The notes below the pieces were generated by a model, which saw only the letters and a list, made by a program, of their open reading frames with translations, was not told the DNA's origin and ran no database searches. The translations under genes were made by a program, and so were the position numbers. Of a DNA stretch of 41,024 nt, positions 2,702-3,936 are shown in pieces. This DNA is from Bacteroidales bacterium. Lineage in GTDB: Bacteria > Bacteroidota > Bacteroidia > Bacteroidales > UBA932. The stretch lies in NCBI GenBank assembly GCA_028700975.1, contig JAQVRQ010000011.1, forward strand, positions 1 to 41,024. The letters run 5' to 3'. The first letter of the stretch is position 1, and every line of letters begins with the position of its first letter.

Positions 2702-2732
2702 TTATGGACATAAAAAAATAATTGTAACTTCG
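2702..2732 (+). promoter_or_regulatory. Probable promoter of the asnA leader transcript
   Basis: TTA at 2702-2704 and TAACTTCG at 2725-2732 are separated by 20 nt, the usual Bacteroidota spacing. Each element has one mismatch to TTG / TAnnTTTG. Transcription would begin near 2739, about 15 nt before the leader ATG at 2754. Confidence 0.45.
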
Positions 2733-2753: not shown

Positions 2754-2837
2754 ATGTATATACACACTAACAATCTTCTTAATAACAACCTGAATAATAA
2801 TAGCATTCGGGCAAGGAGGTTGTGTAACAAAGTGTAA
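2754..2837 (+). CDS. asnA leader peptide, 27 residues, asparagine-rich
   Basis: A 27-codon reading frame opens at ATG 2754 and closes at TAA 2835-2837. It encodes nine asparagines. Eight of them fall in codons 6-16 (2769-2801), as pairs and triplets written with both AAC and AAT. The next gene is asparagine synthetase. A run of codons for the end product of the following gene is the hallmark of ribosome-mediated transcription attenuation, as in the trp and his leaders. A ribosome stalled on the Asn codons covers RNA up to about 2814 and leaves the antiterminator segment at 2815-2823 free. A ribosome that reaches the stop codon covers that segment. The peptide itself probably has no other role. 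The frame is too short for ordinary gene finders. Confidence 0.85.
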   Translation: MYIHTNNLLNNNLNNNSIRARRLCNKV

Positions 2838-2895
2838 TCAAGATAAAATAAATTAAGAAAAATCACTAAAGACAGCCTCCCGTAACGGAGGCTGT
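2785..2895 (+). promoter_or_regulatory. Transcription attenuator of asnA (segments 1, 2, 3, 4)
   Basis: Four segments can form three competing helices. Segment 1, ACAACCT (2785-2791), lies inside the Asn codons and is the exact complement of AGGTTGT (2817-2823), part of segment 2. Segment 2, GGAGGTTGT (2815-2823), pairs over 9 bp with segment 3, ACAGCCTCC (2872-2880), with one G-U pair. Segment 3 is the exact complement of segment 4, GGAGGCTGT (2887-2895), the terminator stem. Inferred logic: with enough Asn-tRNA the ribosome masks segment 2, so 3:4 forms and transcription stops. With scarce Asn-tRNA the ribosome stalls, 2:3 forms and asnA is transcribed. Without translation, 1:2 forms and termination is the default. 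Confidence 0.85.
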
Positions 2896-2901
2896 TTTTT
2901 T
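2872..2901 (+). terminator. Intrinsic terminator, the attenuated arm of the asnA leader
   Basis: ACAGCCTCC (2872-2880) and GGAGGCTGT (2887-2895) form a perfect 9-bp stem with a 6-nt loop, followed at once by a run of seven T (2895-2901). It lies 27 nt upstream of the asnA ATG and 34 nt after the leader stop codon. Confidence 0.92.
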
Positions 2902-2928: not shown

Positions 2929-3936
2929 ATGGACTATTTTCAACTACTGGAAACCGAAGAGGCAATTACCTTCGTAAAAGAGAGATTTGAGAGAGAGCTC
3001 TGCTGTAAACTTAATCTTGTGAGGGTATCCTCGCCCATTGCAATACTGGAAGGGAACGGGATCAACGATGATCTTAATGGTGTTGAGCGGCCTGTGTCAT
3101 TCGCGGTTAAGTCACTTGGAGAGAACAGGGCACAAATTGTACACTCTCTTGCCAAGTGGAAAAGGATAAGACTTATGCAAATGGGAATGCCTCCGGGAAG
3201 AGGGATTATAACTGATATGAGGGCGTTAAGGCCTGATGAGGAGTATACAAATCTCCACTCGGTCTATGTGGACCAGTGGGACTGGGAGCAGACGATAGAT
3301 GAAAGTGAGAGAGGACTGAGTAAATTGAAAGATTGTGTAGAGAATATTTATGGAGCTCTGAGAATAACGGAGGCCGAGGTATCAGCAAGGTATCCTGATA
3401 TAGATTCTGTTCTGCCTGAAAAGATTGTCTTTATTCAATCGGAGGAGCTGCTTAAAAGACACCCCTCTCTTAGTGCAAAAGATAGGGAGTATGAGGCTGC
3501 TAAAGAGTTTGGGGCAATTTTTATTATGGGCATTGGTGGAAAACTTTCCAATGGAGAGGTACATGACGGAAGGGCTCCGGATTACGATGACTGGAGCACT
3601 CAAACCGATGAAGGTTATTCAGGCCTGAATGGAGATATAATTGTGTGGCACCCAGTACTTAAATGTCCTTTAGAACTCTCTTCAATGGGTATAAGGGTAA
3701 ATTCTGAGGGACTTACGAAACAACTCATTATCAGAGAATGCACAGAGCGTACAAACCTTCTCTATCATTCACTTTTGCTTAGTGAAAAACTCCCTTTGAC
3801 TGTTGGTGGAGGAATTGGTCAATCACGTGTATGTATGTTTTTGCTCAAAAAGAGGCATATTGGCGAGGTTCAGGTGGGAATTTGGTCAGATGAGCAGAGA
3901 GAATCACTAGCACAGGAGGGTGTTGAACTGCTATAA
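2929..3936 (+). CDS. asnA: Aspartate-ammonia ligase (ammonia-dependent asparagine synthetase A)
   Basis: A 335-residue cytoplasmic enzyme, close to the usual AsnA length of about 330. It makes L-asparagine from L-aspartate and ammonia with ATP cleaved to AMP, and is structurally related to class II aminoacyl-tRNA synthetases. Family-typical stretches are visible: GMPPGRGIITDMRALRPDE near residues 86-104, YVDQWDWE near 118-125, an internal GGKLSNGEVHDGRAPDYDDW region, and the C-terminal GGGIGQSRVCMFLL, which is the class II motif 3-like ATP site. ATG 2929 follows an A-rich stretch with no Shine-Dalgarno sequence, normal for this phylum. The gene sits alone behind the Asn-rich leader and terminator, so expression should respond to Asn-tRNA charging. 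Its stop overlaps the convergent hydrolase gene by 6 nt. Confidence 0.96.
   Translation: MDYFQLLETEEAITFVKERFERELCCKLNLVRVSSPIAILEGNGINDDLNGVERPVSFAVKSLGENRAQIVHSLAKWKRIRLMQMGMPPGRGIITDMRALRPDEEYTNLHSVYVDQWDWEQTIDESERGLSKLKDCVENIYGALRITEAEVSARYPDIDSVLPEKIVFIQSEELLKRHPSLSAKDREYEAAKEFGAIFIMGIGGKLSNGEVHDGRAPDYDDWSTQTDEGYSGLNGDIIVWHPVLKCPLELSSMGIRVNSEGLTKQLIIRECTERTNLLYHSLLLSEKLPLTVGGGIGQSRVCMFLLKKRHIGEVQVGIWSDEQRESLAQEGVELL

Follow-up and report, generated by a model that had tools for sequence, protein, structure and literature searches.

A probable asparagine leader-peptide attenuator upstream of asnA in Bacteroidales

Introduction

In the genome of a Bacteroidales bacterium (GCA_028700975.1), asnA, the gene for aspartate--ammonia ligase, is preceded by a short open reading frame (ORF) crowded with asparagine codons and by a hairpin with a run of T. 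The locus, part of the 41,024-nucleotide stretch of contig JAQVRQ010000011.1 analysed here (the window), raises the question of whether translation of this ORF decides if asnA is transcribed. Amino-acid leader-peptide attenuators are familiar from the trp, his, phe, ilv, thr and leu systems of enterobacteria. The authors of one report knew of no leader attenuation shown outside Proteobacteria and Actinobacteria (PMC2965389). Strong clues for leader-peptide attenuation before amino-acid biosynthesis operons have been described in the main text of a study of Flavobacterium psychrophilum, with pheA and hisG named among the conserved 5' elements (PMC9723704). Thus, the attenuator type is familiar and leader attenuation in Bacteroidota is already reported. 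The case considered here belongs to the same phylum and the same kind of regulation but differs in its amino acid, the string "asn" being absent from that main text. Our searches of the open-access literature, in which broad queries were judged on their top matches, found no asparagine leader-peptide attenuator; within that literature, neither this amino acid nor this target was found in print.

Results and discussion

Parts of the element in the window

The features on which the argument depends are the following.

2725..2732, + strand: promoter-like motif TAACTTCG, similar to the Bacteroidota -7 element, suggesting a transcription start near 2739-2740
2754..2837, + strand: Asn-rich leader ORF of 27 codons, nine of them Asn (translation predicted)
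2769..2801, + strand: putative sensing run of eight Asn codons (codons 6, 7, 10-12, 14-16)
2770..2780, + strand: segment 1, ACAATCTTCTT, outer part of the 1:2 arm, pairing with 2813-2823 over 11 bp in the predicted fold
2789..2811, + strand: inner part of the 1:2 arm, a hairpin (2789-2795/2805-2811) whose loop holds Asn codons in the predicted fold
2813..2823, + strand: segment 2, with the core GGAGGTTGT at 2815-2823
2872..2880, + strand: segment 3, ACAGCCTCC, common to the antiterminator (2:3) and the terminator (3:4)
2887..2901, + strand: segment 4, GGAGGCTGT (2887-2895), with the T-run 2895-2901, intrinsic terminator
2929..3936, + strand: asnA, aspartate--ammonia ligase (TIGR00669, 390.8 bits against a cut-off of 292.8)

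The predicted leader peptide is MYIHTNNLLNNNLNNNSIRARRLCNKV, ending at the stop codon 2835-2837; its ninth Asn, codon 25, lies outside the run of codons 6-16. A sequence-only reading of this region had proposed an asparagine attenuator, and its parts lie where it had placed them: the 27-codon leader with eight Asn codons at 2769-2801, segment 2 (2815-2823) and segment 3 (2872-2880) with their competing 2:3 and 3:4 helices, and, before asnA, the 3:4 terminator (2872-2895) with its T-run, which our own scripts detect. The heptamer ACAACCT that had been given the role of segment 1 also occurs as stated, at 2785-2791; the fold favours 2770-2780 instead, leaving the 7-nt version as an alternative.

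A motif of the form TAnnTT[TC]G, which we take to be the Bacteroidota -7 consensus, lies 18-45 nt upstream of the leader ATG at 11 of 26 loci (window included) vs 2% of letter shuffles. Segment 2 (2813-2823) contains a Shine-Dalgarno-like AAGGAGG inside the coding leader. Bacteroidia ribosomes are reported not to recognise Shine-Dalgarno sequences (PMC9976891), and a GGAGG-containing segment 2 may be tolerated within a leader for this reason.

Folding of the RNA from 2740 to 2901 gave a z-score of -5.3, equalled by none of 200 shuffles. If a ribosome occupies the last Asn codon before segment 4 has been made, the 2:3 helix is the minimum-energy fold (-15.4 kcal/mol), whereas once segment 4 is present the terminator is more stable than 2:3 even if the ribosome remains stalled (-21.3 kcal/mol); antitermination would therefore have to be kinetic.

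Asparagine codons and terminators beyond chance

When the 420 nt upstream of asnA in the window were dinucleotide-shuffled 200 times, no shuffle reached the observed density of 8 Asn per 12 codons (maximum 5), and the Asn density of each of 20 loci was likewise matched by 0 of 200 shuffles; the Asn-rich leader is not due to chance. As natural controls, we examined the regions before 30 asnB and 30 asnS genes. None held an ATG-started ORF with at least 6 Asn per 12 codons; one of these 60 controls had 5 and one (L256) had 4, and in two of them, L237 and L261, the flank is truncated and possibly misplaced. The idea that such attenuators commonly control asnB or asnS is unsupported by this phylum sample of 30 + 30 loci, with L235 and L256 as the only candidates. 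At L235 (genome G227), the short ORF MIFTFNNNNSNCLFAS, with 5 Asn, lies directly ahead of an asnB, 131 to 80 nt upstream of the family match, and no terminator was seen there by eye.

Terminators accompany Asn-rich leaders closely. Among the 168 evaluable asnA loci of 171 (duplicates included, L018 = L091 and L040 = L129; L013, L086 and L106 of the 171 have <100 nt upstream), our script found a terminator below -11 kcal/mol at 24 of the 25 loci with dense Asn (at least 6 per 12 codons) vs 6 of the 143 others; at the remaining dense-Asn locus, L057, a terminator with a mismatch was seen by eye. This association bears on the idea that the leader acts through translational coupling or reinitiation instead of termination. 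Short upstream ORFs can influence translation of the next gene, which is the subject of PMC4833913, but the terminator between leader and gene at 24 of 25 such loci, together with the 91 nt that separate the leader end from the asnA start in the window, leaves this explanation with a next to negligible probability.

Conservation in the genus and family

We detected asnA in 80 of 199 genomes of the family, 20 of which, our own included, belong to the genus; from these 80 genomes, upstream DNA was read at 70 loci. Of the 19 genus loci that could be evaluated, 15 have a leader before asnA; of the 50 other family loci read, one does (L042) and 49 do not. The leader is absent from the genus genomes G122, G133, G152 and G198, whose asnA is divergent (52-53% identity). 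Given these four, the 49 family loci and 73 of 80 named loci described below, asnA does not require the leader.

The 12 genus leaders aligned mostly keep their Asn columns while interchanging AAT and AAC (87 and 24 codons in total), so that the Asn-rich frame, whose presence in relatives had been put forward as a check of the attenuator, is conserved with synonymous exchange. A covariance model, R1, built from 19 loci (12 of the genus), had matches with E below 1e-8 in 18 of the 25 genus genomes, 12 of these 18 having supplied model sequences; six weaker matches have no asnA downstream.

The same features weigh on the possibility that the RNA is a riboswitch or T-box binding a ligand or uncharged tRNA-Asn, with the short ORF incidental. 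T-boxes control Asn genes in Firmicutes, which lends this some initial appeal, but what is conserved here is an Asn-coding frame with synonymous change and a set of pairing segments. No Rfam family matched at its gathering score in the window, at 10 asnA loci or at four loci with other leaders, and a permissive scan of 2650-2960 gave 13 hits far below gathering (the best, Phe_leader, with E of 0.035 and 25.1 of 55 bits). The lack of an Rfam match at the asnA leader also sets it apart from the Bacteroid-trp motif (RF01692), which PMC2864571 counts among the likely cis-regulatory RNAs in Bacteroidetes. Nothing that we found speaks for a riboswitch or T-box, or for a plain terminator upstream of the gene, and we regard the riboswitch or T-box explanation as extremely unlikely.

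Distribution in the order and phylum

Among the 80 named asnA loci, the leader is present at seven, namely in Solirubrum, four Hymenobacter, a Bacteroidales MAG and Mesonia, in each case accompanied by a terminator; of the 73 loci without it, two have <100 nt upstream. In a phylum sample, asnA was found in 21 of 395 genomes and a leader (at least 5 Asn per 12 codons) plus terminator in four, the window's included. In an order sample, R1 matched 25 of 393 genomes; the 24 new matches comprise 20 before asnA (19 loci), one before asnB, one off a contig end and two before other genes. The element thus also occurs in other Bacteroidales families and in Hymenobacter, which places it in several Bacteroidota groups. 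At L202 (G507), an Asn-rich leader and terminator precede a distant asnA (48% identity); this GC-rich sequence is unlike the others, and the leader perhaps arose independently. Weak R1 matches at L307 and L308 lie 5 nt upstream of a 283-aa ORF, which we take to resemble HisG, and have no Asn leader.

Covariation and spacing

Covariation of the helices was the second check that the sequence-only reading had named, and it is apparent across lineages; on the genus alignment alone, RNAalifold chose the 2:3 helix, with two-sided change in only 1 of 8 predicted pairs. On the wider alignment, RNAalifold chose 3:4. Because indels shift the register of the Asn-loop hairpin between lineages, loci were folded singly instead of by column-wise pair counts. 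In a selection of 16 elements that form 12 groups (in some cases a group consists of two elements of one locus or genus), pairing of segment 2 with its own segment 3 amounted to -167.5 kcal/mol vs -112.8 +/- 9.6 kcal/mol with the segments of other groups (0 of 20,000 permutations). The result was 0 of 20,000 in each of four tests; the p-values here and in the other comparisons take no account of shared descent. L191 (4 Asn) fails the own-pairing test (rank 14 of 16), and 2:3 pairing is poor in the first element of L319 and in the second elements of L312 (almost none) and L321 (worse than most swaps). With clipped terminator arms, many loci had shown weak pairing (p as high as 0.55) and distances had come out at 4-16 nt; the tests reported here used fuller arms.

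The distance from the last Asn codon to segment 2, about 11 nt in the window, has a median of 10-11 nt and falls within 8-15 nt in 53 of 63 elements vs 28-29% with shuffled segment 2. This is about as far as a ribosome reaches ahead of its A site, and the spacing fits the geometry proposed earlier, in which a ribosome on the Asn codons leaves segment 2 free and one at the stop codon covers it. Taken together, the two comparative tests support the attenuator reading of the asnA upstream region.

Link to asparagine synthesis

Genome G869 (92% complete), in which we detected no asnA, has the element upstream of asnB (NF006949, 612.9 bits); in G684, of the same family, it lies upstream of asnA. 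That a relative carries it ahead of asnB is a separate line of evidence for asparagine as the signal. In our own genome (86% complete), asnS is present, gatB gave no match and no asnB scored above cut-off; asnA is the only asparagine-making gene recognised there.

These results also bear on a third explanation, in which the leader ORF would be nothing more than a small gene ending in a terminator of its own and asnA would have a separate promoter after 2901. The 27 nt between the T-run and asnA could be taken in its favour, as could a generic terminator scan of the window, which did not list the asnA leader terminator at 2872-2901; the stem can extend into the T-run, so that probably too few T are left for that scan. 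The peptide-coding segment 2, however, prefers its own segment 3 over the segments of other lineages, and the element precedes asparagine synthetases even of differing enzyme family, which makes a small gene with its own terminator very unlikely.

Proposed mechanism

We consider it highly probable (roughly 0.93), on the strength of comparative sequence evidence, that the element works by ribosome-mediated transcription attenuation, sensing charged tRNA-Asn and controlling asnA. Transcription would start near 2739, with a ribosome following the RNA polymerase on the leader. When asparagine is sufficient, the ribosome would clear the Asn codons and cover segment 2 near the stop codon, and after its release the 1:2 arm could re-form; segment 3 would then be free for segment 4, and transcription would terminate near 2900. 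When asparagine is short, the ribosome would halt on the Asn run, where its footprint would open the 1:2 arm and stop just short of segment 2, such that 2:3 would form first and asnA would be transcribed.

As in the enterobacterial attenuators, codons for the end product abound in the leader, segments 1-4 can form either the 2:3 or the 3:4 helix but not both, and a terminator lies ahead of a biosynthetic gene. The element differs from them in amino acid and target (Asn and asnA, or asnB in one relative), in its occurrence in Bacteroidota, in the location of sensing codons in the inner hairpin loop of the 1:2 arm and in the tandem elements of many relatives. With it, asparagine would join the amino acids for which sensing via leader-peptide attenuation is predicted.

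Tandem elements in relatives

The window carries a single element with an RNA arm (first design) and no tandem. At 16 of 21 order-sample loci (19 asnA, one asnB and one contig end), a second Asn leader lies between the first terminator and the gene, and tandem leaders are also present at L006, L007, L011, L079, L093 and L305. We compared 23 single, 21 first and 21 second leaders, omitting the near-copies L003, L007 and L303 as well as L191, L202, L299 and L332. A 1:2 arm with z below -2 was found in 22 of 23 single, 16 of 21 first and 1 of 21 second leaders, in a test based on plain letter shuffles in which five of the 21 first leaders miss this value. Conversely, Pro-Pro within 5 codons past the last Asn occurs in 16 of 21 second leaders vs 0 of 44 single or first ones; any Pro in this interval occurs in 20 of 21 second leaders, and a single Pro in 6 of the 44. 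By hand count, Pro-Pro was found in 9 of 10 lineage groups. The 2:3 pairing of second leaders also beats permutation (0 of 20,000; 19 of the 21 elements tested), and our script detected no terminator for the second elements of L326 (4 Asn) and L328 (contig end). In enterobacteria, the HisL, IlvL and PheL peptides likewise have Pro past the sensing run. A role of the Pro codons at the RNA level is disfavoured: all four codons are used after the Asn run (CCA 21, CCC 9, CCT 8, CCG 7), and their match to segment 4, judged by eye, is inconsistent (L305 matches).

We give even odds to the view that many Bacteroidales have a two-stage asparagine attenuator, in which segment 2 is hidden by the RNA 1:2 arm in the first element and by a Pro-Pro brake in the armless second one. 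Pro-Pro directly past the Asn run would slow the ribosome and park it on segment 2, doing the job of the arm, and the terminator would form whenever asparagine is sufficient. If so, a polyproline pause would replace an RNA structure, and two serial terminators would tighten repression. The armless Pro-Pro variant of the relatives may be the mechanistically new part, and with such elements one could test cheaply whether programmed slow translation substitutes for an RNA pause structure. In Salmonella mgtCBR, tandem leader attenuators sense ATP and proline, and one leader ORF is Pro-rich (PMC3641672). The relatives considered here resemble it in having two serial leader ORFs, one of them with Pro, and differ in that both carry Asn runs in place of two different signals, the window having a single leader.

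Other leader peptides

Elsewhere in our own genome (G000:C13; L156, L269), two Tyr-rich leaders in tandem, MKFNSTYYYSYYYFNRG and MDINCAYYYSYYYYRTYRGSAVVLLCKSET, lie upstream of a gene (L156:3-1283:-) for a tryptophanase/tyrosine phenol-lyase-type enzyme; a terminator-like hairpin was seen by eye after each leader. No Tyr-rich leader was found at 11 more distant genes of this type that were examined, and one is present at all nine listed genus genes of at least 60% identity (own included), in tandem at three. Model matches (including L161-L164, L167, L169 and L174) revealed further leaders in Bacteroidota whose amino acids suit the gene downstream: a Thr leader upstream of aspartokinase, Ile/Val leaders upstream of ilvA and ilvD, a Met leader upstream of O-acetylhomoserine sulfhydrylase, a Cys leader upstream of a uroporphyrinogen-III methyltransferase (siroheme) gene and a mixed Ile/Thr/Lys/Met leader upstream of asd.
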